Notes under the pieces: model-generated
What the model was told of the DNA's origin: nothing
Database searches by the model: none
Seen by the model: the letters and a program-made list of their open reading frames with translations, nothing else
Origin: Spirogloea muscicola
Taxonomy: Eukaryota > Streptophyta > Zygnematophyceae > Spirogloeales > Spirogloeaceae
Direction of reading: 5' to 3'
NCBI GenBank assembly: GCA_009602725.1
Contig: WELB01000012.1
Location: 610,958-652,070, forward strand
DNA: 41,113 nt
Position numbers and translations under genes: made by a program
Shown: in pieces, positions 153 to 27,203 of the stretch
Numbering within the stretch: position 1 is the stretch's first letter
Layout: every line of letters begins with the position of its first letter

Positions 153-323
153 AAGAAGTGGCAACCCCAATGAGGGGCAAGGGCTGTGAAAAGCCAGCCC
201 GAAAAAGAATTGACATAGGTTCGAAGGGGCCAAATGATGGAGGGGCCTAAAAAGCGCTAAGCAGCTACGAAGAGGCCTGAAGTTGCTATGTCAGAACGGG
301 GTAAGATGGACCACTCCGTTCGA
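153..323 (-). mobile_element. Ultra-short 5'-truncated LINE insertion with 7-bp duplication
   Basis: On the minus strand this 171-bp piece is a LINE 3' UTR with the hairpin arms GGGCTGG/CAGCCC near its 3' end. It is flanked by identical AGGGGAG at 146-152 and 324-330, while the surrounding LINE tail continues on both sides. It matches the copies at 6877-7081 and 8571-8772 over most of its length. Confidence 0.8.
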
Positions 324-400
324 AGGGGAGGTGCCGGGCTTCAATGCTGCAGGCTCGCTCGCTCGGGTCTTTCGCATGCGGCTCTCCGTCTCTCTCCAGC

Positions 401-581
401 ACTCAGTAACCCCTGCTAAGCAGCCTCAGGTCAGAGAGACTGGGTTCCTGGAAGCGGGTCCCCTGGCCAGAGCCAGAGGCAGCAGCGAGGGCTCTGCCTG
501 CACGCAGGTGCAGCGCGCGGGCCATAGACCTCTGCAGCGAGACGGCCAAGCGCATGCGGTACGTACACCTGCGCTAGCGAC
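401..581 (-). mobile_element. LINE tail inserted antisense into another LINE tail
   Basis: The minus strand reads 'GSLAQVY', 'RMRLAVSLQRS', 'ALHLRAGRALAAASGS' and 'SLSDLRLLSRGY' then TGA, so it is a LINE C-terminus of a different subfamily from its host. CCAGC occurs at 396-400 and 582-586, and removing the insert restores the host reading 'SLQRSLAHAVH'. Unlike other copies it stops just after the stop codon, without the usual 3' UTR. Confidence 0.65.
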
Positions 582-708
582 CCAGCGCTCTCTGGCTCAC
601 GCAGTCCACACGGTGCCGATCGCGCCAAGACTGCTGCCTCAGGGTCTCGCCGGAGTGCTTCACTTCCTGCAGCGAGTTACTCAGACTTGATGTTGCTCAC
701 TCGCGGGT

Positions 709-885
709 ACTGAGCTTCCGTCTGTATCGTCTTGTGTCAATTGTGTGGTTTTTCTTTTCGGCACTTTCTTTGGCTTTGGATATTGTCCGTTCTTTTTGGG
801 CTGCCCCTCTTCTCTCAGGGCGCGCCATTCCCTTGGACTGGCCTCTCCCAGCCACCAGTTAATATGGCCGCGCTTGCTTCCATGG
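709..885 (+). mobile_element. LINE 3' UTR, two partial modules
   Basis: This follows the stop codon of the tail ending at 708. The first part (to about 815) resembles the 3' UTR after the stop at 12.885 kb, with the hairpin arm damaged. The second part (about 826-883) has 'GGCCTCTCCCAGCCACCAG' and the GCCGCGCTTGC ending of another subfamily seen at 13.4, 22.7 and 27.2 kb. Confidence 0.6.
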
Positions 886-2290
886 GCGAGCCCTACTCTC
901 TCCGGTTCAACCCCTTGCGCCCGCCCGCCTGCTTGCCCGCACGCACGCACGCGCCGTTTTCCTCTGCGGGCGCCATCACGCGCACGACCCCCGGGCCTGA
1001 CCAGCTGCAGCCCTTGCCTGCCGGCAGTCTATCGCTTGCCCCCTCATTTGGGAGAGCCACTTTCTCGTCTCCTCTGCAGCCGGCCCTCCGTTGGCCCCTG
1101 TCCAAGATGAAGCAGCTCCTCTCGGTTGGTTTGAGGCTGTTGAGAGCTCACAAAGAAATAAGAAGGGCATACAAAGGCCAGAGGCAGCCGGAAACCGTAG
1201 AGGCCACCAAGGCTGCTTGCGAAGCAGAAGAAGAAGATAAGCTTAGTCAGCAGCCTTGTCCGACTTGTGGCTTGCCTTCCAATATAGCCAGTGCCCGCTT
1301 TGGTAGATAGGAAATATCTCATGGCCGACGCAGCCAAGGGGGGCGAGGTTTGTAAGAAGCCACCCACAACGGATGAACATATCCCGAGGAGCCGGACAAG
1401 CGTAGAAATGGGGCAATGGCTGTGAAAGGCCAGCCCTAGCAATGCACCAAGGCTAAGCGCCTAGCTGGCCAGGCCCGACCGGGCGGAGGGCCGAATGGCC
1501 AGGCCAGAAGAAACAGCACTTCCAAATTAACAGCACAGCACAGGCCAGGCCACCGCCCTACACGTGCTAGGCCCTGCCCGCGCCTCAGCCGTCCTCCACC
1601 CTTCACATAGGCCCCACCGGCCACCGTTGCCACCGCTGCAGACGCGACTGACAGTACTGAGAGAAAGAGCCATTCCAATGTAGGAAGAGAAGATGTAAGC
1701 AACGGCTGTATCGGTCGAAGTGGAGAGGAACCAAGCTCGTTCGAAGGGGGCGAGGGCTTTGTAAGCCAGGTCGAAGTTAGAGAAGCTCGTCCAGTGGAAA
1801 GGCATTGGCGGAAAGAATGGCCGAGGTCCGAGGGGCCCGAAGGCTATCAGCTAATAGAATTGCACGACTCTGCTATGGCCACCCTCATTAAGGACGTGTC
1901 TGGCTTGGTCGTACTCTTACACCACACGCCTCCGACGTGCCATCGCCCCCTTCTGGAAGAACTTCGTTGCAAGAGAGAAGGCTCGCGGTAAATATGCAAT
2001 TCTAGCAAGCTGAGCCGATACACTGTTCAAAGAAAGGGGAAAGCCCCAAGAGAAAGCTGGGCTCCCATGAGTACCGGTGCCTGTCAGAAGTTGAACACCC
2101 CGGACTGAAGACTGCTAGCTGGCAGCTGTGACCAGGCCATGCTCGCCGTCGCTGAACAAGGTGCGCGAGAGATCTTACCTCGATCACAGTCGACAAAACG
2201 CCGCTGATTTATCGGCGTAGGCAGCCATGAAAGCCATCCTCTCACTCTGCAACTCCCCAAATCTCACTCTTCCCTTACTTTGGTAACGCC
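886..2290. other. No gene recognised; scattered LINE 3' UTR relics
   Basis: Open frames here are short and resemble no family I know. Two antisense LINE 3' UTR remnants are visible: 1404-1450, with the hairpin GGCTGTGAAAGGCCAGCCC, and a weaker one at about 1735-1835 with TTCGAAGGGGGC and GGCTTTGTAAGCC. The rest looks like unconstrained intergenic DNA. Confidence 0.5.
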
Positions 2291-2467
2291 CCATGAGTGG
2301 CCGTCTTCTTGTAACGCTATCCATCTGGGCTTCGCCTTGCAGGGCCAACATTAGGGAGTCCTCTCTGACTGGCCGCTCGTGCCTACTCCTGCCAATTGTC
2401 TCCGGCTATCACTTCACAGCCTTCCTCACAGTGTTTCTATTTTGCTCGGTGATCTTCGAGTCTGGGG

Positions 2468-2560
2468 CTCCCCTCTAGACCTTGTCCACTAATTTTGGGG
2501 CTGACCTTTTGCAGCCACCGCCTTTGCTTGGAATAGCTTTGCTTTTCTCGCAGTCACTGC
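2468..2560 (+). mobile_element. Degenerate LINE 3' UTR fragment
   Basis: The order 'AGACCTTGTCCACTAATTTT', then GGGGCTGACCTTTTGCAGCC, then CACCGCCTTTGC follows the hairpin module found at 13.37, 22.69 and 27.14 kb, with several substitutions. It lies inside an apparent run of open frame (2293-2736) that I do not regard as a gene. Confidence 0.5.
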
Positions 2561-2739
2561 CATTTCCAGACGCTTTCCACGCCCTCGCCTCCTTCATGAA
2601 GCGCTGCTTTTTTATCTCCTTCTGGAAGCTCAATGTCTCTTCTTGGAGGGATCTTCCACATTTTTCACATTTTACTTCCTCTGCAGATTATGCATGGCCA
2701 ATGTCCTACCAAGGAGCCCCCTCAGCCCCTGACTAGATT

Positions 2740-4110
2740 CGCTTGACAGCCAGTGACTGTGTTGGGTCGCTCATCTGCTTGACATGAAGGCCTCGCCTAT
2801 GAGAAAGTATGTTGCTTCTCTAGGGAGTCTGAGAGTGCCACTGGGTTGAGCAGACTCTTGGGTCAGGCAGTCGCACTGCGTGTGCCCTTATATGTCTAAG
2901 CGGCACGCCGTTACTGCTGGTCCACTTGCTGTTACAGAACCAATGCAGTCATCTCACCTGCATACGCACTAGGCAACGGAAAGAAGATGCGTGTAGCGCA
3001 TGTTCTTCAGTAAAGGGGCCAAGGGTGAGCCATCAAATGTGATCAAGAGGGACTTGCAAATTTTCCATATCATCAACAATATCCTACCCCTTACTACCAA
3101 AGGCAGATAGTCTGCTGTGATTGGCCTGAGATGCTCGGTCCTGCAGGTTAGTAACCAATAACAACCCTCGGGAGGTGCTGACATAGTAATTGTTCACATT
3201 CCTCATTCAAATTTAAGAACGAAGGTCTTCCTAACATATATGCAAACGGGGCAGCTGCCAGACGCATGCAATATTTTGTATTGATATCTGGACTGACTGA
3301 ATTGACTATCTATTGATTGGTTGCATCTCTTGACTGGAATCAAGCAATTATAAGAAACTCAATGCAAGCTCTAGCCAGCAAAATTGACAATGAGGCCGTC
3401 CAATCGCATCTCCACATCCCAAAGGTGGCAGGCAGTAGACGTCATACTGTTCCCTATGGCAACCACGTAGAGCGCGGGACAACAACGACGACAACAACAA
3501 CAACATGATGTTGGGCCCAATAAAAATAAGAAGCCCGTAGAACTTGTGCAGCCTCATTACAGCCACTCCTCTCGTGCTAATTACTTAGCACCTCATGATA
3601 TATCAACATTCAACTTGTAATCATTAGCCAATTGCCATTCTCGTGCACATTATTTCTACTCTAAATTGAGCAAAAAAAACGCAGATAAGACAAGGCTGTA
3701 TAGGAGGCATATTCATCTGCTACAGGAATGGTAAGGGCGGTTCTCAATAGAGGCTCCCAAACTTTTAAAATCATATCATCTTTCAATGTAAATAGTAGCA
3801 GCATACGGCAGACACTTTTATTGTGTCTGGTCCAACTTGAGATTTACCTCTGTTGATCCATGTGCATGCACAGCTAACTCCGCCTGTATTCTGGATGCTC
3901 TCCAACGTCATACCAGTCAAGTCTGCACCTCTTTCACAACCACATTCAGTACGCAGCGGGGGTGACCCTTGATAGAACGGGCATGCGCTCTGGATTGTGG
4001 CGTATTCAGTTGGACTTATGTATATAGACTGCTGATACTTAGCGTCAATGTACTTTAGGGCTGCATTAGGGAAAATCCTGCATCCACACTATAGCTATTG
4101 CCCAGCAATG
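2740..4110. other. Intergenic stretch; short ACA/ACG repeat only
   Basis: No frame here resembles a known protein, and no clear exon chain could be built on either strand. A short trinucleotide tract of AAC/GAC units lies at about 3480-3505. The stretch is more AT-rich than the retroelement clusters. It is downstream of the cysteine-rich gene on the minus strand and may hold its 3' UTR. Confidence 0.5.
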
Positions 4111-5887
4111 TCATGTTGATCCTTGTCCATATAGTGAGTGACTCCCAGTCGCATGAGTCACACCAGAAGAAGAAGCGCTCCTCTGCTCCCTGAGAAATAA
4201 CAACAGAGGTTGTGTCGTAAAGGCCACCATTGCAGGATATCTCCCCATCTGCTCCATCTGGCAGGAGGTATTGCTGCTGCATGGAGTGATAGAAGTGCAC
4301 ATGGCTGCTGATGGACTTACGGCGGGCACACATTACTGGACACACAGATAAATCCACCACCAGTGGGCTTGGTGCAGCAGATCTGGTAAGAAAATTCGCG
4401 AGATATGCATGAGGGGCACATAGATGTAGCTGTGCGGTCAAGTCAAATAACGCTCAAACCGCACTATCATGAAGAGGCATGCTGCCATAGTGAGTGCTGT
4501 CGAAGCATTCCTCTACCAAATCCATCTGCTTGCGCATCTGCTTGGAAGGCACCTACATGCACAATGAAGTTGCTAACTTTGACATGTTTTATGAAAGGGC
4601 CTCAAGGGGCTGTGATACCTGGCCAGCAGGACAGCAGAGAGACTTCACACCGGTTGCCGACTTCTGGTAGCAGACCCGCTTAGGTGGGTAGCATTGACCA
4701 GTTGTGGGGCAGCACACTGTGTTGACAGGGCAGAGGACAGTGGTGGTGCTGGGAGACGGCTGCGGGCAGACTCTCTGCTCATCGACATACATTCCCTGCA
4801 AGTAGTCCTAATAAAGTCAAACAGAGCCAACGGCAGAAACAAGCACACTGCAGTGGCTTCCAACTTCTTACAGTGACAATTGCGAGAAGTGTCTCATGGG
4901 AAGCCATTCCCATGCACGAAGTCGCACATACATAGCTTTGGGTGCTCCATCCAGCAGCACCGGAGCTCGTTATCAGCGATAACAGCAGATTGAGTTTGGG
5001 AGGCGTACCTTATAACAGGCTTGATGGGCATCGCAGCAGCCGCAGGTCTGATTCTGGCGAAGTCACTGCCGATTTCACGCAAGAATCGTTAGTGCCTTTG
5101 CAGGAGGGCAAGTTTATCCATGAAGTATGGCAAGTCGTCTGTTGTGATAAGTAAATATGTGCCTGCAGCATTCACAATTGTCCAAGCCGTTGCTGGCAAA
5201 TGATTCAAAGGACAGAGGGCCAGCAAGCAGCTGCTGACAATGTTGGAGAACATTGAAGCACATGGCTGTCGCTTCAATTGAACGGACGCTTAGTACTACA
5301 GCTGCACCGCTTGCAGGCACAATAAGGTGTGGCTCTCGGCTTTCATATTCACCAGCTACATTCAGGAACTCTATGACCAAGCAAGATTTTTCTGCTGAGA
5401 GGGTTGCAGAGGTCCGCGGCAGTTGCCCTTCAGCTGTCGAGATTGAACAACTATTATGGAGACCTAGCATCACTCTGCAGGATGAGGACCAAAAGCAGGA
5501 GTAGTAGGCGCCACGAGTGCAGAGGACAGGAGACTTACATAGCAGCATCGGGAAGTGCAGATAGGTGGGCAGACCGTTTGAGCCTCGATTTGAAGCGTGG
5601 TTGCTGGATTTCAGAAGTGAAACACAAGTGTTACCCGGGAGCGTTGTTGCCGTTTGTAGGTAGACAGCAGAGAGATGATTGCATGGCTTGTACACGAGGC
5701 CCAGGGCTACAGGTGTCAGGAAGCAACATGTGCAAGGAGCCAAGCATGAACACGGGGAGACGAAGAATGTGAAGTACACCGAAGTCAAAGCTGCCCCCTT
5801 CATGGAGCTTAGGCAAGCGTCTCTGCAATGAGACTTACCTGCAGGCAGCATTAGGAGAGCGACCAGGGCAGTAGCCTTGAGAGCCAT
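4111..5887 (-). CDS. Putative secreted cysteine-rich protein, six exons, function unknown
   Basis: I do not recognise this family. A consistent chain of exons is 5887-5839, 5603-5539, 5053-5009, 4795-4619, 4382-4321 and 4276-4111. Phases match throughout, and the donors are GTAAGT, GTAAGT, GTACGC, GTATCA and GTAAGT. The product is about 187 residues. The first exon gives a typical signal peptide (MALKATALVALLMLPA). The rest holds about 21 cysteines, often as CC pairs: 'CPPICTSRCCY', 'TCGCCDAHQACYK', 'CPVNTVCCPTTGQCYPP', 'SLCCPAGQICC', 'GFICVSSNVCP'. This pattern suggests an extracellular disulphide-rich fold, loosely like granulin- or Stig1-type modules, but the spacing fits neither well. The last exon is the weakest part: a second frame over 4210-4070 is also open and would give another C-terminus. 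Exons between 5539 and 5053 may have been missed. Confidence 0.6.
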
Positions 5888-6059
5888 GGTCGCCAAAGGA
5901 CGAAGGTGGTTGGGAGGGGTGGGCAAGGGGCCGGAAGTGTGGGGCTGTGGAAATGAGTAGACGCGACCAGCACGCTAAGTAGAATTGTGCACCTCCGCTA
6001 GGGGCCGTCCCGCCAGCCCCTCACGAGCTTCTCTGCTTGCTGCACAGAAGGAGCACTTC
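5888..6059. promoter_or_regulatory. Presumed 5' flank of the cysteine-rich gene
   Basis: These roughly 170 bases separate the ATG at 5887 (minus strand) from the first LINE remnant. No TATA-like box or other defined motif stands out. The assignment rests on position only. Confidence 0.3.
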
Positions 6060-6315
6060 CAGAAGAAGCCCATGGCTGTGAAAGGCCAGCCCAAGAGGAA
6101 AGGGCAAGGTTCGAAGGGGCCAGGAGGGGCGAGGGGCACAGAGGGCTCACAGGAAGCGGGGAGGGGGCACTGATTGAGTGGAGGGAGGAACAGGAGCGGG
6201 AGAGGGGCAAGCGACATGTTCGCCCAGGAGCGGGGACAAAAGCGCGTGCCCGGGTCGAGAAGGAAAATTTCGTGTATTTGAAACAAACGAAGGCCAAATG
6301 GCTAAGTACAAAGGT
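6060..6315 (-). mobile_element. LINE 3' UTR (subfamily with TTTGAAACAAACGAAGG)
   Basis: On the minus strand, 'GGCCTTCGTTTGTTTCAAA' (about 6270-6300) precedes a GC-rich stretch, 'GGCCCCTTCGAACCTTG' and the hairpin GGGCTGGCCTTTCACAGCC (6074-6092). The same order occurs at 13.75-13.55 kb and 23.02-22.80 kb, where it follows the SDL-LTR protein ending. Confidence 0.65.
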
Positions 6316-6337
6316 TGAGAAGGAGACGAGGTTGTTC

Positions 6338-6396
6338 CATCTCGTTCATCCCTCTGGGCTGGCCTCTCACAGCCATTGCCATTCGTTGGAAGCGCT
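6338..6396 (+). mobile_element. 59-bp LINE 3' end with 8-bp target duplication
   Basis: This segment is little more than the hairpin GGGCTGGCCTCTCACAGCC (6357-6375) and the terminal nucleotides after it, flanked by perfect GGTTGTTC at 6330-6337 and 6397-6404. It is the shortest insertion seen here and nearly defines the minimum 3' sequence of the element. Confidence 0.7.
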
Positions 6397-6714
6397 GGTT
6401 GTTCTTCCGGGTCATATACCTCCGAGGGCAGGGAGGGCGAGAGAGCAGTAGCCACGGTGCCGTGCAGGGCGGCTGCGGCCAAGGGCGCAGGGAGGATCGC
6501 GGCAGCCGCAGCGGGCAGGGCAATGGCGGCCGCTTGCGCCCCGGAGACACGCCAGCCAGGAACGGCGAGGCTGATGGCACCGACGAGTGGGCCCGTCGAG
6601 AAACAGCTCTACCAATGTAAGAGAGAAGGCGCGCGGTGCGCATAAAATTAAAGGGGAGGCCAATTCTAGCCTTACAAATGTCCTGTTTACGGGGATGTAC
6701 GAGAACAGCGCTTC

Positions 6715-6765
6715 CGAATTGACTGGTGGCAATGTAAGGCAATGGTTGTGAGAGGCCCATAGAGG
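6715..6765 (-). mobile_element. LINE 3' UTR relic
   Basis: AAGGCAATGGTTGTGAGAGGCCC around 6731-6755 is a mutated antisense copy of the hairpin with its terminal segment. The flanks could not be resolved. Confidence 0.4.
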
Positions 6766-6876
6766 ACGGGCGGGGAACTCGGGCCCGGGTGTCACCGGCC
6801 GTTGGGGCCCATCTCGCACGCATCTCTCCGCGTGCACCGACGGCGGCCAGCACGCGCGCGGACCAAGCTTGGACGA

Positions 6877-7081
6877 AGAAGTGGCTCTCCCAATGGGGGC
6901 AAGGGCTGTGAGAAGCCAGCCCGAAAAGAATTGACAAGGTTCGAAGGGGCCAAAGTACGAGCTACGCAGCGACTTCGGGGCCTGAAGAGGCTGTGGCAGA
7001 ACGGGGGAGGATGGACGACTCAGTAGTTACGAGTGAGGAGCCTCAAATCCGACAGACTAGCTGCCGGGAAACTATCCCCAA
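6877..7081 (-). mobile_element. 5'-truncated LINE insertion with 9-bp target duplication
   Basis: On the minus strand this 205-bp insert starts inside the protein ending (PAASLSDLRLLTRNY, stop), then carries a 3' UTR of about 150 nt with the hairpin GGGCTGGCTTCTCACAGCCC and the end 'CATTGGGAGAGCCACTTCT'. CTTGGACGA flanks it exactly at 6868-6876 and 7082-7090. Confidence 0.85.
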
Positions 7082-7317
7082 CTTGGACGAGCCCAGGGAG
7101 GGAAGATTGCGTGCCGCCCCACCTGTGCCGAAACGGGCGGACGGGGTAGGTCCCACGGAAAAAGGAGATAAGCAGGGCCTGTCGACAGGACGGTGGCTGT
7201 TTCTAACTCAATTCCAACCCAAAGTGAGAAGCAGCTGCTTTTCCAACCGGCAGAGTCAAGGGATTTAGAGTCGTTCTTGTAAAGAAGCACGACTCTTTGT
7301 CTTTATAAAAAGCCCTC

Positions 7318-7450: not shown

Positions 7451-7615
7451 TGTCATCCAGGCCGGGCAATAAGGGCGGCGGCTCCAACGCAAGGCCGGGC
7501 TGCCCGGGTGGAATATAGCCCGGCCCCATGCAAGAGCGGGCCTGCCAGCCAGTAGCATCCGGCCCCGGGCCCCGCCACACGACCTCTGCCCGCACGCCGC
7601 AGTGCGTCGGCGCCA

Positions 7616-7621
7616 CGCCGT

Positions 7622-7653
<32 letters not shown>

Positions 7654-7660
7654 CCGCTTG
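7616..7660. repeat. GCC triplet microsatellite
   Basis: A run of GCC units with occasional GTC and ACC interruptions. It makes long spurious open frames (poly-Gly, poly-Ala) on both strands. Confidence 0.9.
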
Positions 7661-7930
7661 GACGAGAGGGAGGGTGCGCGGTGCGCATGCAGTAAAGTGG
7701 TGTGGCCATATTAAGCCATTAGGTTGTTCAGGCAAAAGCTAGTCCAAAAAGTGCGGCTTCATGAAACGTAGCTCTATGCTAAGATGGCTAAGAAAGAAGC
7801 AGTACCATTGTGACTTTACTACTCACGGGTGAGCACATCCATAATGTCGACAGGCTGAATTGGGGAGCCGAAAGCCGGTGTGACGGACACGTCACTTGGC
7901 GCAGGTAGTTAGCCAAATCGTCTACTAGCT

Positions 7931-8150
7931 GTGAGCGCCGCCGGTTCGCTCGCTCAGGTCTTCCGTATGCGCCTGGCGGTCTCGTTCCAACGCTCCCTTG
8001 CCTACGCCGTCCACACGCGAGCAGGCCGTGCTATGGCTGCTGCCTCTGGGTCTCGGTGGAGTGCCTCTTTCCCTGCAGCGAGCTACTCTGACTTGATGTT
8101 GCTCACTCGCGGGTACTGAGCTTCCCTCTGCATCGTCTCGTATTTTGCAA
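7931..8150 (+). mobile_element. LINE 3' tail, 5'-truncated
   Basis: An open frame from about 7931 reads 'AAGSLAQVFRMRLAVSFQRS', 'YAVHTRAGRAMAAASGS' and 'SYSDLMLLTRGY', then TGA at 8117-8119. This is nearly identical to the copy at 12.7-12.89 kb. The 3' UTR begins with GAGCTTCCCTCTGCATCGTC and soon loses similarity. It lies tail-to-tail with the minus-strand copy at 8570-8275. Confidence 0.75.
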
Positions 8151-8274: not shown

Positions 8275-8570
8275 GGCCAGCATGAGAAGTGCGCGCCCAT
8301 AGAGAAGAGGGGCTGGCAAAGCCAGCCCAAAAAAGAATGGAAAATGTTCAAAGCCAAAGAAAGAGGAGCCGGAGAAAGGACTATCACTACAAAACACTGC
8401 AGAAGACAAAAACGATGCAAAGGAAAGCTCAGTACCCAAGAGTGAGCAACATCAGGTCTGAGTAGCTCGCTGCAGGGAAAGAGGCACTCCGTCGTGACCC
8501 AGAGGCGGCAGCCATAGCACGGCCTGCGCGCGCGGCCAGCATGGGCCTGGCGGGGCAGCCCCGGGGGTTC
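8275..8570 (-). mobile_element. LINE 3' tail plus 3' UTR, antisense copy
   Basis: The minus strand reads 'ARAGRAMAAASGSRRSASF' and 'SYSDLMLLTLGY', with the stop at 8431-8429. The 3' UTR contains GGGCTGGCTTTGCCAGCCCC (about 8305-8325) and ends near GCGCACTTCTC. A further truncated copy (8571-8772) is inserted next to it. Confidence 0.75.
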
Positions 8571-8772
8571 GAGGAGAAGTGGCTCTCCCAATGGGGGCAA
8601 GGGCTGTGAGAAGCCACCCCGAAAAGAATTGACAAGGTTCGAAGGGGCCAAACTACGAGCTAAGCAGCGACTGCGGGGCCTGAAGAGGCTATGGCAGAAC
8701 GGGGGAGGATGGACCACTTAGTAGTTACGAGTGAGGAGCCTCACATCCGACAGACTAGCTGCCGGGAAACTA
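8571..8772 (-). mobile_element. 5'-truncated LINE insertion with 9-bp target duplication
   Basis: This 202-bp antisense piece is the near-twin of 6877-7081: protein ending PAASLSDVRLLTRNY and stop, 3' UTR, hairpin, terminal CATTGGGAGAGCCACTTCT. CGGGGGTTC flanks it exactly at 8562-8570 and 8773-8781. One hairpin arm is mutated (GGGGTGG instead of GGGCTGG). Confidence 0.85.
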
Positions 8773-10789: not shown

Positions 10790-11080
10790 ACACATGGTGG
10801 GCGTGGTTGTGAGAGACAAGCCCCCCCCAAAGAAGCAGTAACTTTTCCAAAGGGTTGAGGGCTTTGAAAGGCCAGCCCGAAAAGACTGAACAGGGTCCAA
10901 AGGGGTTGGGACAGCTCTGGGTCACACGGCTATGCAAGACCACGAGGGGCGCATAATTTCTAATAAGCAGCTGCAAGTCAGACAGAATAGCACCCAAAAG
11001 CAGTCCCCTTGCCAATAGCCAGAGGCGGCAGCTAGAGCATGGCTTGCTCGCAGATGCAGTGCGTGGACCATTGACCACCG
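10790..11080 (-). mobile_element. Degenerate LINE tail with 3' UTR
   Basis: The minus strand reads 'VVHALHLRASHALAAASGY', then in a shifted frame 'LSDLQLLIRNY' (about 11000-10955) with the stop lost. The UTR has CGGGCTGGCCTTTCAAAGCCC near 10870-10890. It lies back-to-back with the plus-strand LINE that begins shortly after. Confidence 0.6.
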
Positions 11081-11376
11081 CAGCAGATTGGTAAGTTGCG
11101 TGTAATACACCTTGAGAGGCGAGCTTGTGGCGTTGAACTCAGGCTGTTTCCCGTGCCGCTGTCAAGACATGGCCTGGCGCGCAAGCCTGCTCAAAAGGTC
11201 CGGCCACTGAGACTCGGAAGCCCTGTGGACATCGGTGGCCAGTGGATCGAACTCGTCCCCTTCCGTATGATCAGCCTGATTGGGCTCCTTGCCACGGGCG
11301 GCGTTGGCTGCTGCATGCCAGAAATAATAGAAGAGACCCTCAAAATGGAGCGATTAAACACATCTGTTGTGACGTC

Positions 11377-13015
11377 ATTGGCAACGATGCGCGGGCCCCA
11401 GTATCAGGCGCGGCTGCAGGAACACCTCCGGCCGGCGGACTATCTTCACACGCTTTAGGACATGCAGCTGGCGACCGCTATGCTGACACGATGCATCGCG
11501 CAGCGGCCACACTATCTGGCCCGCACCATCCCTCCCTCATCGGCGGTGAAGGCAGCGTATGCGGCATTTGACTCTGGCATCCTGGCGTCCGCGTCCACCC
11601 TCGTGCAGCACCCCGAGTGGCTCACCTCACCAGCTGCGCTGCTGCAGGCTAGCCTGCCGGCCAGTCGCGGTGGCTTGGGATGCCGCTCAGTGGCCCGCGT
11701 CTGTGCGGCGGCCTACAAGGAGAGCTGGTCTCAGGTTGCAACCCCCATGTGCCAGCGATTCATCGTCCACGGCCAGCGCGCCCTGGAGCGGGCGGCAGCT
11801 GAAGTGGAGATCGGCCAGCTGCCCTTCCAGGTCGCCCTCCGCTCTGCCAGCGACGGGCTCCTGGCGGTCCACCCCAACATGTCGGAGCAGGCCGTCCCGT
11901 TCCTGGCGGTCCACCCCAACATGTCGGAGCAGGCCGTCCCGTTCATTCACCTCGCCCACATGCCTGACCTGCCTGCCCAGGCACGCTTCACGGCGCTAGT
12001 TGAAAAAGAGGCCTCTGACCAGGTGGTGGAGCTTCTCCCTCCGTCTGACCTTCGCGGGCGCGCGCGGCTCCTTCCAGCCTCTTCCCTGGGGCGGCGGCGT
12101 GGTTATCAGCACTACCAATCTACGCGGCGCTCACCATGCCCGACGAAGTCTTCAGGACAGGGGTCCACCGGCTCTTGGGCCTTCTCCCTCCCTGTCTCGT
12201 GGGCGGCACTCAGTGCGAGTGCAGTGCCCGTCACGCCGACCCTGCGGAGCTGGCTGCGCATATGCTCCGTTGCGCGCACGGGGGCGGACCGGTTCCCACG
12301 ATCTCCTGCGAGATGCCATGCAGGGGGTGTTCATGGAGGCGGGCTTCAAGGTGGCTGGAAACACCTCAGTAATGCCCATCCAGCTGGGCGTGGACGGCCA
12401 GCCCCATACTCGACGCGCCGACCTGGTCGCCATCCCGCCCGGGCATCATCGCCGATGTGGTGACAGCTGACTGCATCGACTCCGCCAATCCCGCCAGATC
12501 GGTGTCGTTTGCAGGGCACGCGGTCGGCCTGGCGGCTGGGGGGCAAGTAGCGTAAATACGCTGATCACCCGGGTTGGTGATGAATTTGCGGCCCTGGCGA
12601 TAGATGTCCACGGGGCTTTCGGCAGCCGCTGGCTGGATCTCCTCCAGCGGCTTGCCCGTCAAGCCATTGACCGGCGGCTGGGTCAGCAGGGGCGATGCCC
12701 GGCTTCAACGCCGCCGGTTCGCTCGCTCAGGTGTTCCGAATGCGCCTGGCGGTATCGTTCCCCTTGCCTACGCTGTCCATACGCGCGCCGGCCGTGCTAT
12801 GGCCGCCGCCTCTGGGTCTCGGCGGAGTGCCTCGTTCCCTGTGGCGAGCTACTCAGACCTGATGTTGCTCACCCGTGGAAACTGAGCTTCCCACTGCATT
12901 GTCTTGTGTTTTGCAGTGTAGTCCTTTTCTGGCTCCTCATTCTTTGGCTTTGAACATTGTCCTTTCTTTTGGACTGGCTGTGCCAGCCCCTCTTCTCTAT
13001 GAGCGAGCACTTTCT
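11377..13015 (+). mobile_element. Decayed LINE: region after the reverse transcriptase, endonuclease-like end, 3' UTR
   Basis: The longest LINE copy here begins after the polymerase core. Recognisable pieces in order: 'DMQLATAMLTRCIAQRP' (a TAG precedes it in frame at 11456-11458), 'LPASRGGLGCRSV', a cysteine/histidine cluster 'CECSARHADPAELAAHMLRC' (about 12210-12270), and an endonuclease-like block 'SHDLLRDAMQ' ... 'TRRADLVA' ... 'IIADVVTADCIDSA'. After stops come 'DVHGAFGSRWLDLLQRLA' and the tail 'SYSDLMLLTRGN', stop at 12885. At least two frameshifts (near 12060-12130 and 12290) and several stops show it is dead. The 3' UTR runs to about 13015 with GGACTGGCTGTGCCAGCCCC. The zinc cluster plus PD-(D/E)XK-like block would fit LINEs with a restriction-like endonuclease, but I cannot fix the clade. 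Confidence 0.75.
11861..11944 (+). repeat. Perfect 42-bp tandem duplication inside the LINE
   Basis: Two identical 42-bp units (11861-11902 and 11903-11944) keep the frame and duplicate the peptide LAVHPNMSEQAVPF. Their identity suggests a recent duplication or a collapsed/expanded read artefact. Confidence 0.95.
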
Positions 13016-13109
13016 TCTTCTTCTTTCAGTATGGAGTCCGTCAGCCCTGCGCAGCATGGGCGTGATGGACATATTCCCAAGCGCTCCCAAATTAAATAGA
13101 AGCTCTTCC

Positions 13110-13245: not shown

Positions 13246-13269
13246 AGGTCGGAAGGGGCTGGGAAAAAG

Positions 13270-13481
13270 AGCAAGCGCGGCCAGATTAACTAGTGGCTGG
13301 GCTGTTACTGAGAGTTCGCTTACTGCTGTCTCAGTTTTTAGCACTCCGACACCTTCAGACCTTGTCCATTCTTTTGGGCTGGCCTCTCCCAGCCACCAGT
13401 TAATCTGGCCGCGCTTGCTTTCTGCTGGGAGAGGCCAGCCCAAGGAATGGACAAGGTCTGAAGGAGCCGGAGTGCTGGGAA
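13270..13481. repeat. Nested inverted repeats made of LINE 3' ends
   Basis: Two interlocking fold-backs are present. 13340-13393 pairs with 13424-13476 across a 30-nt spacer (about 53-bp arms, few differences). 13270-13301 pairs with 13388-13419 (32 bp, one difference). Both are parts of one 3' UTR module inserted in opposite orientations. The plus-strand copy at 13322-13418 is nearly identical to 22642-22738 and 27100-27197. Confidence 0.85.
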
Positions 13482-13539
13482 AGAAGAGCGCAAAATCCAG
13501 CTCTTCTCACAAGGGGCCGGCGGATGTCTGGAAGGAAAG

Positions 13540-14200
13540 ACGCTTCCAGGAGAGGGCGGTGGCTGGAGAGGCCAGCCCAGAAAAAAGACTGAACAATTTC
13601 CGAAGGGGCCGGGGAAAAGGGAAATTTCGTGTGTTTGAAACAAACGAAGGCCAAATGGCCAAGTACAAAGGCAAGCACATCTTACGACCTACATAACCTA
13701 CAGTAGATTGACCCGCTCAGAAAGCACGGGTCAAAATATAAAGGTCGCTAACCGATGCCTGGATACTAGATGGCAGATACGAAGCCCTTCTGCCACCAAC
13801 TAGAGCTCGCCCAGCTTTCTGGTGCAAAGCATTAGCCTGAGCACGCTGCAAACAGGCAAACTAGTCGTCGCAACAACGACAGATATTCAGCTGGCAAGCC
13901 CATCTCAGCCGGGAACACATCTGCATGTCGTGTGTAGCCTAGATTGGCTATGTTTTGAAGGAGATTAAGGAAACGAGGACCTAAGCAGCCAAAGATGTCG
14001 ATTGCCGCTGGCAAGAGCTGATCATATCGGGGGTAATCGGAGTAGTGCTGCAACTTTCTTTGTTCAGCACAGCCCACTGCGTGGCCAACGATGTGTGTCG
14101 ATGCTGGACCTTTATAGGCCTCCGTAACTACAATATCGACCAAAGCCCTTGGTCCTCCACCAGGTTGCACGCCCACAATGTCTAGTGTGCGGCGATGATG
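13540..14200 (-). mobile_element. LINE C-terminal region with 3' UTR, minus strand
   Basis: The minus strand reads 'RALVDIVVTEAYKG', 'RKLQHYSDYPRYDQLLPA', 'FGCLGPRFLNLLQNIA', 'FPAEMGLPAEYLSLLRR'. After a one-base shift come 'LQRAQANALHQKAGRALVGG' and 'SVSDLYILTRAF', with TGA at 13719-13717. This is the usual end of algal LINE polyproteins, with an endonuclease-like D-I-V-V-T strand. The 3' UTR continues to about 13540, with CGTTTGTTTCAAACACACG near 13640 and hairpin GGGCTGGCCTCTCCAGCC near 13570. It represents a different subfamily from the 12-kb copy. Confidence 0.75.
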
Positions 14201-14535: not shown

Positions 14536-17397
14536 ATGGAGGCAATGGCTCGGGGGATACGCCGTCCTGCTGCTGCTGCCCTCCGTTTGCTGTTGTGGAA
14601 CGGTGCTACGAGGACGCAGGCCTCATGCTCTCGCCCAGCTTGCAAGGTGGTGCGCCGTCTGCTGCCGACGAGTGATCGGCAGCAAGGATGTCAGGGCCTG
14701 GACTCACAGCTTAGAAGGGGCCTAGCGGGCGCCACCACCTCCGGTGACAGTGATGCTCATGGAGCTGCCGTCGATGCAAGCTCCGGTGGAGACGCGGCGG
14801 CGCTGGTCGCCGCAAAGGCGGCGGTCACGGGCTTTGACATTCCCACGCTGGAGGCGCTGTTCAGCAGCGCTCAGGAGTCCATCGGAGCGCACCACGCCGT
14901 GACGGCGTCGGTGGCTCTCAGCCTCGGCCAGGCTTACATGCGAGTGCGTGCTGAGGCCGTTGCCTTCTTGTCTGCGCTGGTGTGGCTTGCACTAGCCGGG
15001 TGAGCCTCTGACTGCCGCGGCACTCTCAGCTGCCATGGGGTTGGGCCAGGCTGGCCACCATCCAGAGCGGGCCTTGGAGCTGGCAGAAATGGCTTGGAAG
15101 GTGTTCGACAAGCTGGCAGGCGATAGTGGTGGCGGCGCTCATGGTGGCCAGGCCAGACCCATGTGCTTGCACCTCATGGCGGCCGCTCGGGGGCGGTGAG
15201 CCACCGACAGCCATGGCCAGGACTGCAAGACTGGCGGAAACATTGTTGGGCTGGCGCTGCTCGGCCTGCCTGAAGCCAGTTCCCATCCTATCAGCCTAAA
15301 GCCTGAATCCTAAACCCTTGAACCCTAAATTCTAAACCTCAACCAGTTTGCACTTTCGAACCCTAGTCACTAAACCCTAGGTGGCAACATCGATACCTGT
15401 AACTACCTCACCAGCAGGCGTTCCCGGCGCGTGCAGCATGGGGCAGCACGAGTTGGCGCTGGAGCACCTCGATGCCGCCCTGCGGCTGGTCCGCGCAGCC
15501 AATGCCACCCCTGCCGCCAAGGGCGGCGGCGGCGCCGTCGAGCAGGATGCTGCGCTGATGGAGTTCTCGACGCTCATGCTGCAGGGTGATGTCCACCAGG
15601 CGCTGGGCCGGCACGCTGCGGCCCTTGATGACTACTGCGCAGCACTGAGCTGCCAGGTGGCCACCTTGGGCCCTGCGCATGCTGATGTCGCTGCCACGTT
15701 ACGTCAGGTGGCAGAGGTCCATGCGCACCTGCTACAGTTTCCGGAGGCGCAACCTCTGGCCGAGCGCGCGCTGCGCATCCACTGCCGTGCACTGGGTGAC
15801 GGCTCTACAGACGAAGCTGTGGACCGCAGGTCAGTCGCTGGCCACTGTGACATTCAAGAGCTGAGGTACTGCCTGTTCTCACTTCTCTACTCCAAAACTC
15901 CAACCTGAGCTCATAAAGTCTAAGCTGAGTCTCTGAAGCTTTGACATATTCAGTTTTCAGAGACTTGCCAGTTGCCCTGTTGGCAGGCTCCTGGCTGTGA
16001 TCATGTCGGGCCAAGGCGACCATGAGGCAGCACTGCTGCACCTTCGGAAGGTAGCCGCGATCCTCGCAAAGCGCGGTCGCAACCTGGATATTGCATACGT
16101 CAATGACTCTGTTGGTGAGGAGCTGAGCGCGCTTGGACGGCACAGCGAGGCGCTGGCCGCGTTCGAGGTGGCGATACGTAAGAAGGCGGCGGAGCTCGGA
16201 GAGCGGCACCTGGCCGTGGCATGCACCCAGGTTGCGGTAGCCGAAGCCTGCATTGCTGCTGGACAAGCGAGCGATGCGGAGGTATGCCGAGCTAGCCCCA
16301 GGTGGGGTTCAGGGTTTGACGTCCAGGCGATAGGGCCTAAGTTCTACATCATCAACTTGCACGTCGAAGCTGCCCCTTGGACAGCATCACGGCAGCTAAG
16401 TGCACAGGTGTCCCCCTGCTGCAGGTCTTCATAGAGAAGGCTGTACAAGCATACGGCGAACTGGACGAGCTGGCCAACGACCCGGCAGCCGCCCTTGAGG
16501 CGGCGCATGGCCTCACGCAGCTGGCAGGCGTGCATGAGAACATTGGGCAGTATGACGAGGCCATCATCTTCCTCCGAAAGGCGCTCGCCTTGCGGCGCAA
16601 CATTCCCGGCCAACTGCACGCTGTCGCCAGTGAGGATCCATCTCCCTGCTGGCTCAAGTCCAGAGGGCAGTAGCTTCTGTGAGGTGCAAAGTCCCAATCT
16701 TGAGCACCTTGCGGTGCAGCATTTCCCAAGCCAGCTGCACGTTGCCAGTGAGGATCCGCCTCCTGCTGACGTGAATGCTGGGCAGGACTTGTGATTGCAG
16801 ATCTGCATGGAGGCTATCTCATTAGAGTCTCAGCTTAGATTTCGTGAAAATCTTTTCACCATCATGTGAGCTATTGTGCCAACCTGTACTGAGAGCGTGC
16901 TAAGATTGGTGCAGGTACGCTGTCACAGATTGGCCTGACACAGCAGTCAGCCAGCATGCTGGACGATGCTCTAGTCACTTTTCAAGAGTGCTTGCCTTTG
17001 ATGATTGAGGCTTTTGGGGCAAACCACTCATCCATTCCCATCATTCTAAACCAAGTGAGCTCCTCAACATTCCTCGGCCCATTTGCCCAATCACTGCTAA
17101 TCCAACTCAAGGTGAAAGAGCGTACCAATAGTTTTCTCATATCCTTGCGAAGCGCAATCGCAATCCGATAGCAAGTTAACAAGAATGAATGTGATACTCA
17201 GTGACAATATTGATGGAGCCCTCGATACCCTGCAGATGGGCTTGGCACTGACGGAGCTGGGAAGAATTGAGGAGGCCGTATTTCACTTCCAGCGGGCCAG
17301 CAGCCTCCTCAACATGCTGGTTGGGAAGGATCACGACCAGGCAACTGCTGTGCAAGAGAACTTGCTAGCTGCTCTAGCAATGCTCAAGAGCCCATAG
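14536..17397 (+). CDS. TPR-repeat (kinesin-light-chain-like) protein, possibly organellar
   Basis: Seven exons join in consistent phase: 14536-14943, 15050-15195, 15437-15829, 15987-16281, 16425-16629, 16915-17054, 17236-17397, giving about 582 residues. The body is a string of 34-42-residue tetratricopeptide helices of the kinesin-light-chain type: 'ALSLGQAYMRAGHHPERALE', 'QGDVHQALGRHAAALDDY', 'SVGEELSALGRHSEALAAFE', 'AGVHENIGQYDEAIIFLRKA', 'ALTELGRIEEAVFHFQRAS'. Such repeats bind partner proteins; no catalytic domain is present. The N-terminus (MEAMARGIRRPAAAALRLLL) is Arg/Ala-rich and lacks acidic residues after position 2, which fits a mitochondrial or plastid transit peptide (inference). 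Another ATG at 14525 is out of frame. The gene converges on the AMSH gene, leaving about 130 bp between the stops. Intron 2 holds telomere-like sequence. The exact partner or pathway cannot be told from the sequence. Confidence 0.85.
15295..15382. repeat. Degenerate telomere-like CCCTAAA tract in an intron
   Basis: Units such as CCTAAACCC, AACCCTAAA, AACCCTAG and TAAACCCTAG recur irregularly within intron 2 of the TPR gene. They resemble the CCCTAAA strand of plant-type telomeres, with much decay. Confidence 0.65.
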
Positions 17398-21838: not shown

Positions 21839-22354
21839 GGCGGCCGCCCGCGCGCGTGGCCCCCGTCGCACAACGCACATACGCTAAGCACAGTGCTGGC
21901 TTGGAAAGCTGTCGTCAGTGGAGGCTCAGCGTCGAGCCGCCGCAGCCGCCGCCGCCATCGCCGCCGCCGCCGCCGCCGCCGCCGACTGCGAAGCGCAGCC
22001 GCTTTCGTGGCGCCGGCGGTGGCAGGCGCGGCGGCCTCGCTGCCGTGACGGGGTCGGGCGCTGGGGTGACAACCAGAGAGTACCGGAAGGGTGTGGGTGA
22101 GAAGAAATGCAGTTGCTTGCTTATGGAAAAGATGGCAGTACGAGCCAGCCAGGGGCATACACACGGTGTTCATCGTTATACTGGCCACTTATTCTATACT
22201 AGCGGAGCCACAGGCTAGGCAAACAGGGTGTGCTCTAATCGAGGAGGTAATTTGTGACGGGATTGTGGCGCAAGGCTCTCATAGATTGCCGGTTTCGCCC
22301 CTTGGCGTCTCACTTTAAGCCGGAAGAAGCTCGTACACCCGCAGACGAGCCTTG
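21839..22354. promoter_or_regulatory. GC-rich 5' flank of AMSH
   Basis: This island upstream of the minus-strand AMSH start includes a GCC-repeat tract at about 21940-21992, probably in or near the 5' UTR. The overlapping open frames on both strands are produced by the triplet repeats. No core promoter motif is evident. Confidence 0.45.
21940..21992. repeat. GCC triplet microsatellite
   Basis: A mostly uninterrupted run of GCC units with CAT and GAC interruptions, upstream of the AMSH start. Confidence 0.9.
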
Positions 22355-22434
22355 GGCTGCTGGCCTGGAAGAAGTGGCTCTCCCAATGGGGGCAAGGGAG
22401 CAAGGGCTGTGAGCAGCCTGCAGCAAGGCGAGCA

Positions 22435-22740
22435 GCCTGGCATCCATGTCGCCGGGTCCCTCGCCCAAGTTTACCGGATGCGCCTGGCCGTCTCTTTGCA
22501 GCGGTCCCTAGCTTTTGCGGTCCACTTGCGCGCAGGCCGCGCTCTGGCGGCGGCCTCCGGCTTCCGTCAGGGCGACGTCTTTCCGCCTGCTAGCTACTCA
22601 GACTTGCATCTACTGACGAGAGGTTACTGAGAGTTCGCTTACTGCTGTCTCAGTCCTTAGCACTCCGACTCCTTCAGACCTTGTCCATTCTTTTGGGCTG
22701 GCCTCTCCCAGCCACCAGTTAATCTGGCCGCGCTTGCTCT
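22435..22740 (+). mobile_element. LINE tail plus 3' UTR
   Basis: The plus strand reads 'AGSLAQVYRMRLAVSLQRS', 'AVHLRAGRALAAASGF' and 'SYSDLHLLTRGY', stop at 22628-22630. The 3' UTR of about 105 bp contains GGGCTGGCCTCTCCCAGCC and ends near GCCGCGCTTGC. Just upstream (22365-22412) is an antisense fragment of another 3' end. The frame is clean from about 22352, so this copy is relatively young. Confidence 0.75.
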
Positions 22741-22744
22741 GTGA

Positions 22745-23030
22745 ACAGAAGAAGTGGCTCTCCCAATGGGGGCAAGGGCTGTGAGAAGAAGTGGCTCTCC
22801 CAATGAGGGCAAGGGCTGTGAGAAGCCAGCCCGAAAAGAATAGACAAGTCAGCCGAATGTCGACATCAGCAGAAACGTCTCTTCCAAGGAATTTTGTGTA
22901 TTTGAAACAAACGAAGGCCAAATGGCCAAGTACAAAGGCAAGCACATCTTAAGACCTACATAACCTACAGTAGATTGACCCGCCCAGAAACCACGGGTCA
23001 AAACATAAAGGTCGCTAGCCGATTTCTCTT
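22745..23030 (-). mobile_element. LINE tail and 3' UTR, with an extra partial 3' end
   Basis: The minus strand reads 'SASDLYVLTRGF' near 23030-22995, with the stop changed to TGG. The UTR with CGTTTGTTTCAAATACAC, the hairpin GGGCTGGCTTCTCACAGCCC and the end CATTGGGAGAGCCACTTCT follows. The last roughly 38 bp are repeated once more (22747-22784 beside 22785-22822), a head-to-tail partial copy. Confidence 0.7.
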
Positions 23031-24072: not shown

Positions 24073-26690
24073 CTAATATCTTGACAGTAGGTGGAAGTTG
24101 TCATCGTCCAGAACTTGGACAGACTTTGCACCGACGAAGTGCTCCAGCCCAAGCTCCTCTACAATATTCTTAAACTCAACCCGCTTGTCCAGGCTCAGCG
24201 GCACATATGGAAGCCGAAAGACAGGCCTAATGAGACCCAACTGCGCCAGCGCAGTGTTCAGCCCAATGGGATTTGGCTCAACAAACAACCAGCTTATCAA
24301 AGGTGCCAACTGCTGCGCAAGGTCGTCATCGCATCCTTCCATCAGTTTACGCATCAGCTTGGGCACAAGCGTGCTGGCCACAGAGATAACACCCTGCGCT
24401 CCTGCTTGCCACCGTGCTTCATGGCACTGATCATCATTCCCGCTCCACACTGTCATGCCCTTGCCAGTGTACCCCGCAATTCTCTGTGCAGACAAACACA
24501 AGAGCACGTTTGACTTCAGCACAAGCAATGTCACTTCTCTCTAGCGCACAACATTCTCTAACCTCACTCAGAGAGCATGCGCTCTTCCTCGAGGCACCAG
24601 TGCAAAGTAAAACGCGTGAATACAGCCCTCACCTTGTTGCCCATGCACTCTTTGACGCCTATGAAATTAGGATTACTGATGAGCTGCTCCATGACAGCTG
24701 GCGGAATATCCTGCCCTGTCCGGGCAGGAACATTGTAGATGATGCCTGGTCCAATAGAGAGAACAGACCTAGCACCAGAGACAGACTGCTGTAAGTATGT
24801 CACCTTTCTTAGCTTTGACTGCATGCAAGTTCCTACTAGGTGCCAAACTGCGCCACTTCTGAGGATTTAATGACAGAGACATAAATAAATGCCTTACTGA
24901 TGACGTTCAGCCACCACACTGGGAATCAAGCCCCTAAGCCTAGCCCTAAATCAACACCGCCCTGAACACATTGGGTGCAGAAGCCTTCAAGAAGCAACCC
25001 TTAACGAAGCAACCCTAATCAGAAAATGACAGGGTAAAGTTGGGCAGTGACATTTGGTACAGACTTCCACTAATAGTTGTTCTTGAAGAATCATCAGCCG
25101 GCTGGACTGCGCCAAGAAAGCACCAGAGATAAGCATCTTCAGACCCATATTTCACCTGAAATGAGTGGCAAGGCCTTCCATAGACGTCTTCCCATAATAA
25201 GGATTGATCTGGAGGGCAGCATGCATTCCCACTGCGAAGCCCTGCTCTGTTGCGTGCACCGCCTCAGACGTGCTGTTGCTGCCGGTGTTGCCAATGACCT
25301 TCCAGAATGCAAGCATCAATGGAAGATGTTAACAAGAGAGACAGAAATAGCTCTTCCAATGCAAGGCAATGGCTGTGAGAGGCCAGCCCAAAGGAATGTA
25401 AAAGGTCTGAAAGGGCCAGAAGGCGCAAAACAAGAGAGGAGTAGATTGTGCCGCAGTCCTTCACTTACAAGGGTGCTGCAACAAGAGCTACAGTGTGGCT
25501 TGCCTCACATTTAGCCCACATGCATCCACAGTGCCTACACGTATGGCTGCTGTGAGGCGTTGGCAAGAGCAGGCCCCTTGCTTGACTGGTAATCAGCAGC
25601 TTTATAAAATCTTACCTTGATGCGATCTCCAAAGCATACGACCGTGTGGGCAATGAGCATGATGTGTTCATCCCAGTTCATCAAGTGTCCCTCGCCTGTT
25701 GTTCCACCGACAATAAGACCCTCTGCCCCGCTTTCTATCTGCCAAAACCCAGCCTCAACGTGCAATTAGAGATGACAGCTGTTGCCTTTACTATATACAG
25801 GCTTCTATCCATGACAGGCGTGAGGCAAGTTTCGGCATAGCCGAGTCCCACACAACCAAACAGGTCAGCTGACCTGGCTGTTGACAAGTCTGTCATAGGC
25901 TTGCAGGTCGAACTTGCCAGACTCGGGCAGGTACGGCGTCTTGATGGCTGTGATCAGACGGAGGCTCTGAACGGCCTCCACAGGCGTGCTGCATCAACAG
26001 CAGGACCAGCGGGCAGAGCCCGAGGTGTAAATAAGTCGGGGAAACAAAAGGGGCGGCATCAAATCTGCTGATGAGCAGCTGGCTCCAGCCTTGTTGGTGC
26101 AGATTGCGTCATCCGCCACGCCGGGATTTTGGCTACGTCCCAACATCAACTTCGCACAAAGCAGAAGGAGGGCCTTCCAGACGACGCCTGATCACTAGCT
26201 GGCACAAATTCTCTGTGTCTGACGTGAAGTCCAGGCTTTCTGGCCTTCGTCATAAGAGGGGCTCAACCGCGCGAGTTAAACGTGCAACTGCCAGGAACCC
26301 CGTTCATTAAGCAAGCAGGAGTGCCCTGGCCGGCATATGAGGGGTCAAAGAGCTCCAGTGGGAAGCCCAAGGGAAGCACGTCTGACGCCCAAGCGCCTCA
26401 CTTCGCCTCGCAGGACGTTCATGCTGGCGCGACGCGCAGCCGGCTCAGCTCTCACGCCAGCTTCAGCGGGTCCCAGGCGCGGACTCAGTACGTTCAGCTA
26501 TGGGAGAGGGTCTCTCGTTCGCGCACCTGGTCTTCACTTCGTCGCTCCGCATCGGCAGCGGCGCCGCCTGCATCAGCGCCGCGCGCGGCGGCGCCGTGCC
26601 GCCCTGCCGCCACCGCCGTCGCCGGCTCGGCACTGTCGCCGAGGTCGCGGCCGAGAGGCCCCCCCCGGCGCCCAGCTCGAGGGCCGCCAT
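24073..26690 (-). CDS. dapA: 4-hydroxy-tetrahydrodipicolinate synthase (plastid lysine pathway)
   Basis: This enzyme condenses pyruvate with aspartate semialdehyde, the first committed step of lysine synthesis, in the plastid of plants and algae. Six exons join in phase: 26690-26527, 25988-25874, 25738-25616, 25298-25156, 24768-24633, 24483-24073, giving about 363 residues, normal for plant enzymes. The first about 45 residues (Ala/Arg-rich, no family similarity) fit a transit peptide. The mature part starts 'MRSDEVKT' and '[13 protein letters not shown]'. Active-site elements are intact: 'GGTTGEG' (about 104-110), Tyr in 'YNVPARTG' (about 193), Schiff-base Lys in 'GVKECMG' (about 221). The end '[14 protein letters not shown]' is plant-like. 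In '[11 protein letters not shown]' the Ser, Glu and Ala positions where plant feedback-resistant changes are known (from memory of maize) are wild type, so lysine inhibition is likely. Exon 4 has an unusual AAG acceptor. A LINE fragment sits in intron 3. Confidence 0.97.
25341..25428 (-). mobile_element. 88-bp LINE 3' end inside a synthase intron, 10-bp duplication
   Basis: AACAAGAGAG flanks the piece exactly at 25331-25340 and 25429-25438. On the minus strand it reads from 'TTGCGCCTTCTGGCCC' through the hairpin GGGCTGGCCTCTCACAGCC to 'GCATTGGAAGAGCTATTTCT'. It lies in intron 3 of the lysine-pathway gene in the gene's sense orientation. Confidence 0.85.
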
Positions 26691-26824
26691 GGCGCCTGCA
26701 GGACGCTTTACGGCGACCACACGGCGGCGGTGGCGGCGGCTGGGGCCCCCCGCGGGTTTTGGAAATTTTCGAATGGCCTTTCGCTAACGTAGCCACTGTT
26801 TATTTGCCGTCTGGTATTGGGGCA
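26691..26824. promoter_or_regulatory. 5' flank of the dihydrodipicolinate synthase gene
   Basis: A GC-rich island with GGC-type triplets covers the start codon and the upstream 100 bases; beyond 26770 the sequence becomes AT-richer. Position is the only evidence. Confidence 0.35.
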
Positions 26825-26965
26825 TGAGTTAGCGACCTCTACGTGCTGGCTCGTCGTTACTGAGCGGGTCAGCTTAGCGCAGGTACTGTACAGCTGACGA
26901 AGTGCCTAGCCTTCGTTACTGGGCTGGCCAATCACAGCCATCGCCCTCTCCTAGAAGATACTTTT
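26825..26965 (+). mobile_element. LINE tail end and 3' UTR
   Basis: The plus strand reads 'SDLYVLARRY' then TGA (about 26831-26863), followed by 'GAGCGGGTCAGCTTAGCGC', 'GGGCTGGCCAATCACAGCC' and 'ATCGCCCTCTCCTAGAAG'. It belongs to the same subfamily as the minus-strand copy at 13.72 kb (SDLYILTRAF). Confidence 0.65.
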
Positions 26966-27103
26966 TTCTTGTACTTGGCCATTCAGGCCCTCCATCATTC
27001 CACACGCTCCAATTCCTACTGCAGCGGACTGGGCTACCCGAAAATCAGTAGTCAGCTGTTGACGGAGTCTGCTGCATCGGCCTACACTGTTGGCGCCCTT
27101 CTG

Positions 27104-27194
27104 CTGTCTCAGTCCTTAGCACTCCGACTCCTTCAGACCTTGTCCATTCTTTTGGGCTGGCCTCTCCCAGCCACCAGTTAATCTGGCCGCGCTT
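27104..27194 (+). mobile_element. 91-bp LINE 3' end with 9-bp target duplication
   Basis: GCCCTTCTG is found exactly at 27095-27103 and 27195-27203. Between them lies only 3' UTR: CTTAGCACTCCGACTCC, the hairpin GGGCTGGCCTCTCCCAGCC, and the end CTGGCCGCGCTT. Nearly identical to 22642-22738. Confidence 0.85.
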
Positions 27195-27203
27195 GCCCTT
27201 CTG

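Follow-up and report, generated by a model that had tools for sequence, protein, structure and literature searches.

The window analysed here, a continuous stretch of 41,113 nt, contains short pieces that we interpret as dead copies, truncated at the 5' end, which target-primed reverse transcription has made from several related LINE subfamilies (probability about 0.87). An earlier note on this DNA had already proposed target-primed reverse transcription, and the proposal is supported by direct repeats that persist when both copy ends are fixed by homology, by a paralogous empty site, by variable 5' ends, by a shared 3' hairpin zone and by a coding LINE ancestor. The process is well known; what is described is a real and well-formed example of an ordinary mechanism.

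Six pieces had been reported as bounded by exact direct repeats, and sequence comparison in the window showed that in all six the repeats are exact and immediately flank the insert (Table 1). A seventh insert, 8285-8533, was absent from that list and was exposed by the end-anchored test described below. Read on its sense strand, it runs from an ORF end (RAGRAMAAASGSRRSASFPAASYSDLMLLTLGY-stop) through the 3'UTR and the hairpin to the tail. The seven duplicated inserts, all of them from this single window, have interiors of 59-249 bp and different 5' ends. Identical 5' ends had been named as a sign of a different element type; the closest pair (6877-7081 and 8571-8772, 96% identical over 198 nt) starts 7 nt apart, so that even here the 5' ends are close but not the same.

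Table 1. LINE-derived inserts, copies and fragments in the window.
Feature	Position	Strand	Length	Direct repeat or other landmark
A-subfamily LINE tail insert	153-323	minus	171 bp	duplication AGGGGAG (146-152 / 324-330)
B-subfamily tail insert	6338-6396	plus	59 bp	duplication GGTTGTTC
A-subfamily insert	6877-7081	minus	205 bp	duplication CTTGGACGA
D-subfamily insert	8285-8533	minus	249 bp	perfect 10-base duplication GGCCAGCATG (8275-8284 / 8534-8543)
A-subfamily insert	8571-8772	minus	202 bp	duplication CGGGGGTTC
B-subfamily insert	25341-25428	minus	88 bp	duplication AACAAGAGAG
C-subfamily insert	27104-27194	plus	91 bp	duplication GCCCTTCTG
Older LINE copy	81-815	plus		ORF end YSDLMLLTRGY-stop at 681
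I-subfamily LINE copy	10827-11293	minus		tail 10827-10910; ORF end SDLQLLIRNY without stop at 10982
Longest plus-strand LINE remnant	11462-13018	plus		open frame 11462-12463; ORF end YSDLMLLTRGN-stop
F-subfamily copy	13534-13756	minus		ORF end SDLYILTRAF-stop
LINE copy	22435-22740	plus		readable ORF end (MRLAVSLQRSLAFAVHLRAGRALAAASGFRQGDVFPPASYSDLHLLTRGY-stop) joined to C-type tail
Tail-only fragment, A type	22747-22788	minus	~42 bp	starts inside hairpin
A-subfamily tail copy	40310-40501	plus		directly after telomere-like repeats
G-subfamily copy	40618-40795	plus		ORF end SLSDLRLLSRGY-stop, hairpin, tail

When the window was searched with a profile of the 3' tail, built from 14 tails that included all six of the pieces named earlier, 29 copies were found at E≤1e-3 (42 rows at E≤1), which means that the six represent a selection. 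The repeats could in principle be chance matches, picked by eye at six of 29 copies in GC-rich, repetitive DNA. Short repeats are indeed frequent in this sequence. If repeats were sought anywhere in the 300 nt upstream of the 29 copies and compared with cross-paired flanks, matches of at least 8 bases were found for 14 copies (7.8 expected) and matches of at least 9 bases for 10 (3.5 expected), and the longest matches (13, 15 and 21 bases) were internal to the LINE and not target duplications. Under these conditions most of the six repeats are individually unremarkable, with cross-pair p values of 0.667 (153), 0.214 (6338), 0.107 (6877), 0.143 (8571), 0.036 (25341) and 0.071 (27104). Since 7- and 8-mers are so common without a positional constraint, a repeat of 7-9 bases is weak evidence by itself, and the unconstrained search was dropped as a test because of its high background.

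In the end-anchored test both ends of a copy were fixed by homology, and only short windows around them were allowed. BLAST matches and profile hits supplied the edges, from which the ends were picked manually; 28 of the 29 profile copies were used, 13424-13476 being left out because its 3' tail is missing. The numbers of copies with repeats of at least 7, 8 and 9 bases were 8, 6 and 5, against 1.59, 0.59 and 0.30 expected from cross-pairing. Random placements within bases 1-27200 gave a mean of 0.33 for at least 8 bases, with none of 1000 sets reaching 6, and the maximum for placements over the whole window was 4. The 5' edge turned out to be faulty in five of the 28 copies: for 12946-13018 it had been taken from a match on the minus strand, and for 10842, 13541, 26919 and 40715 it fell short, LINE sequence continuing upstream. 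Without these five rows the counts were 6 of 23 (0.45 expected; none of 10000 permuted pairings reaching 6) for at least 8 bases and 5 of 23 (0.23 expected) for at least 9. When four of the faulty edges were lengthened, the values for 13541 and 26831 being estimates from the peptide, 6 of 27 copies had repeats of at least 8 bases (0.50 expected; one of 10000 permuted pairings reaching 6). The corrected test was slightly stronger than the first one. The edges of 8571-8772 came from an untrimmed comparison, whereas those of 153-323 and 6877-7081 are not fully independent of the boundaries given before, as the query pieces had been cut there. Within this window, exact repeats at copy ends are in excess of the controls (6 of 23 against 0.45), and target site duplications, as expected of LINEs, are present at the ends of seven inserts, where they are perfect. 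Together with the empty site described below, these tests make an origin of the repeats by chance extremely improbable. For 21 of the 28 tested copies no convincing duplication was detected in the end-anchored test, which suggests that many copies are old, chopped or not simple products of target-primed reverse transcription. The best flanking repeat of 40618-40795 (TTCTCTC, 7 bases, low-complexity) and the 7-base repeat TCTGTGC flanking the copy at 6044-6130 had no other support.

The 7-base repeat of the 153-323 insert was weak in the end-anchored test (p_cross 0.093), and the case for this insert therefore rests on its paralogous empty site. The flanks of the insert were joined with a single AGGGGAG and aligned to the window. 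The joined sequence aligned through the junction to an uninterrupted paralogue at 12630-12747 (76.8% identity over 125 columns, E 8e-22), which is good evidence that the AGGGGAG repeat arose on insertion. A second match, 22422-22502 (70%, E 1.5e-5), barely crosses the junction, as it begins only 4 nt ahead of the duplicated word. For the other six inserts the window contained no informative paralogue; for 6877-7081 and 8571-8772, only matches of 18 and 21 nt at E 0.33 crossed the junction. The 153-323 insert sits within the older copy 81-815, and this nesting orders the two in time; the older copy is interrupted a second time, at 398-587, by a LINE fragment on the minus strand.

All six of the pieces named earlier carry, near their 3' (sense) end, a common hairpin core, which reads GGGCTGGC...CAGCC in sense. 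According to the earlier note, the 3' side is common to all pieces and the point at which the 5' side stops is their only difference. This holds for the hairpin, but downstream of it at least three tail subfamilies can be told apart among the six pieces (A: 153, 6877 and 8571; B: 6338 and 25341; C: 27104), and fragments lacking the tail exist as well. Variable 5' truncation combined with a constant 3' end, as is typical of LINEs, was observed with the exception of these tail-less fragments. In an alignment of 15 tails chosen from the 29 copies, 12 of 70 columns were invariant, nine of them in the hairpin; as the core positions are near-invariant, covariation would say little. The core stem was recognised by eye, whole or in part, in 16 of 18 minimum-energy folds and was missing from two. 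Fold z-scores ranged from -4.8 to 0.2, several being weak (0.2 and -0.4 the weakest); the controls were single-base shuffles, which were only modestly beaten in several tails, and the folds varied among subfamilies. A scan with a loose hairpin pattern was dropped as unspecific.

The ORFs of the LINE copies end in peptides resembling SDLxxLTRGY-stop. An SDLxxL-type peptide (SDV in one case) was found at 14 places, at 11 of them with the stop, a recurrence that is partly by design as the pattern was written after examples had been seen. A fifteenth match, at 5051, looks like chance. Among five of the 14 copies, compared without gaps over 28 codons, the third codon position differed most in all ten pairs, the pattern that divergence of the subfamilies as coding elements would leave, and the comparison supports protein-coding parent elements. 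No reverse transcriptase domain was detected, Pfam giving 0 families for the ORF remnant in the window. The ORF remnant ending at 13018 contains, as judged by eye, a cysteine/histidine (zinc) knuckle and an R..AD..DV stretch that may be reminiscent of a restriction-like endonuclease; searches of PDB and Pfam gave 0 matches.

The coding ancestry also bears on whether the pieces might be SINEs, or members of another non-autonomous family, with a 5' end of their own and a borrowed LINE tail. The tail is common to many short units, the 6877 and 8571 inserts are 96% identical and start at nearly the same point, and LINE-tailed SINEs are known in Chlamydomonas according to a passage of one review (PMC3747384). 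Nevertheless, the seven duplicated inserts have different 5' ends, and in 6877-7081, 8571-8772 and 8285-8533 LINE coding sequence extends to the junction or close to it. The 6877-7081 insert starts within the last ORF codons (GDSFPAASLSDLRLLTRNY-stop), and its coding peptide runs up to the duplication, so that the junction cuts an ORF, a point against SINEs that have a 5' end of their own. No tRNA gene and no Rfam match were found in the window, and the seven inserts displayed neither a 5' region derived from a small RNA nor a fixed 5' end, an observation that carries less weight for the non-coding pieces of 59-91 bp. We consider a SINE origin very unlikely.

The 11462-13018 remnant consists of a decayed, frameshifted ORF followed by the 3'UTR, the hairpin and the tail, position 11462 being the start of the open frame and not necessarily the 5' limit of the copy; a perfect 42-nt tandem duplication lies within the decayed ORF at 11859-11942. 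The minus-strand match at 11169-11293 was counted with the copy 10827-11293, whose matches, to judge from their order, would form one copy. The 10827-11293 and 11462-13018 copies lie head-to-head on opposite strands. A peptide related to that of 13534-13756 continues upstream of 13756, so the DNA edge of this copy underestimates its length. No convincing duplication was found for the 22747-22788 fragment in the end-anchored flank test.

Fragments without a 3' tail were seen at 398-587, 7936-8149 and 40506-40615. The first of these, a minus-strand piece inside the older copy, is flanked by an imperfect repeat recognised by eye (AGCACTC/AGCGCTC), and its first 47 nt (398-444) recur without any change at 40618-40664 on the opposite strand. 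At 13267-13476 there are three C-type LINE pieces in the order minus/plus/minus, so that the middle piece is in inverted arrangement with its neighbour at either end. The tail-less fragments and the minus/plus/minus pieces fit nested insertion, deletion or recombination after insertion, or capture at breaks. It might be supposed on these grounds, and from the imperfect repeat of 398-587, that some of the short pieces originated as cDNA fragments taken up where a chromosome had broken, and not by target-primed reverse transcription. All seven duplicated inserts, however, have kept the tail and are flanked by duplications of 7-10 bp, and we regard break capture as an unlikely source of short pieces.

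Formation of the inserts by target-primed reverse transcription can be envisaged as follows. The LINE protein would bind the conserved hairpin near the 3' end of the RNA and nick the target, and the nick would prime reverse transcription at the end of the tail. In the seven clean inserts cDNA synthesis would have stopped after 59-249 nt, and cleavage of the second strand 7-10 nt away, presumably in this order of steps, would give rise to the direct repeats. The earlier note had described the extreme shortness of some copies as unusual. In support of this, the 59, 88 and 91 bp inserts fall below the range of 100-1,000 bp that a passage of one review (PMC3747384) states for defective LINE members; on the other hand, 5' truncation through incomplete reverse transcription is, as described in part of another paper (PMC2881922), general in LINEs; the same paper outlines target-primed reverse transcription with early truncation of the 5' side. 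No statement on the frequency of such very short LINE copies was found in the literature searched. As the note further suggested, the short copies may be due to a reverse transcriptase that falls off almost at once, but RNA decay, a cDNA that ended early in some other way or host repair would produce an identical scar. We do not claim that the 5' ends cluster around the ORF stop, a possibility that was weighed, as several edges were too short at the DNA level.

The clean examples illustrate that a very small part of a LINE, once copied, can still be inserted with a target duplication, and the defined 3' hairpin is a candidate recognition signal. A more far-reaching and doubtful idea is that tail-only scars shorter than 250 bp are the usual surviving product, that LINEs themselves thereby generate a SINE-like load and that the duplications of 7-10 bp may reflect a restriction-like rather than an APE endonuclease. 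If tail-only scars were to dominate genome-wide, some short orphan repeats might be LINE ends that annotation can miss.

The coding segments of the window are of eukaryotic type: a SNF2-related domain was found in 33024-33482, TPR repeats in 15381-15905, and a DHDPS-like segment on the minus strand (24076-24534), about 0.8 kb from the 25341-25428 insert. From the telomere-like TTTAGGG repeats and the general character of the sequence, the setting is probably green-algal. At 40242-40320 an ORF-end-like LINE peptide (SDLHVLTLG) gives way to telomere-like TTTAGGG repeats, and an A-type tail copy comes directly after these; this may be an interstitial telomere or a LINE insertion into telomeric repeat. 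Degenerate CCCTAAA-like repeats occur at 15290-15385, just before the TPR-coding segment, and tracts rich in GCC/CGG triplets at 1-50, 7605-7671, 21933-21996 and 41036-41113, both ends of the window included.

Comparison with known sequences gave no match to a named LINE family, and Rfam had no match in the window at gathering scores. In viral contigs the tail and ORF patterns gave 0 stretches and the protein queries no distinct locus (one confirmed stretch, possibly the window itself); one tail pattern gave 0 in contigs of prokaryote genomes. The subfamilies are apparently new, although these viral and prokaryote collections tell little about algae. In nested insertion, in the many copies consisting of the 3' end only and in the probable green-algal setting, the pieces resemble Zepp and the Zepp-like L1 LINEs of green algae, as far as described in parts of two papers (PMC8226300, PMC3446292); Zepp arrays are, in the same part of the former, mostly 3' ends. 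For Zepp (L1 clade), PMC3747384 gives poly(A) as the 3' repeat, whereas the 15 aligned tails have none. RandI/Dualen, treated in parts of PMC3747384 and PMC4640811, are likewise LINEs of green algae; none of the 15 aligned tails showed the 3' repeats that PMC3747384 lists for RandI, (ATT)n or (CTATTT)n. The C-terminal restriction-like endonuclease of RLE-type LINEs (RandI/Dualen, R2 and NeSL, for example) may be echoed in the R..AD..DV stretch of the ORF remnant, as judged by eye, PDB and Pfam giving 0 matches. Since the listed 3' repeats are absent from these tails, the pieces were filed under neither Zepp nor RandI. Stringent-type LINEs, according to a passage of the same review (PMC3747384), carry 3' stem-loops and have truncated members, and a conserved 3' stem-loop is present here too. 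With these elements, as that passage describes them, the pieces share the conserved 3' hairpin zone, the 5'-truncated copies and the target duplications; the reverse transcriptase of stringent-type LINEs requires the stem-loop, and the hairpin in the window is a putative recognition site.
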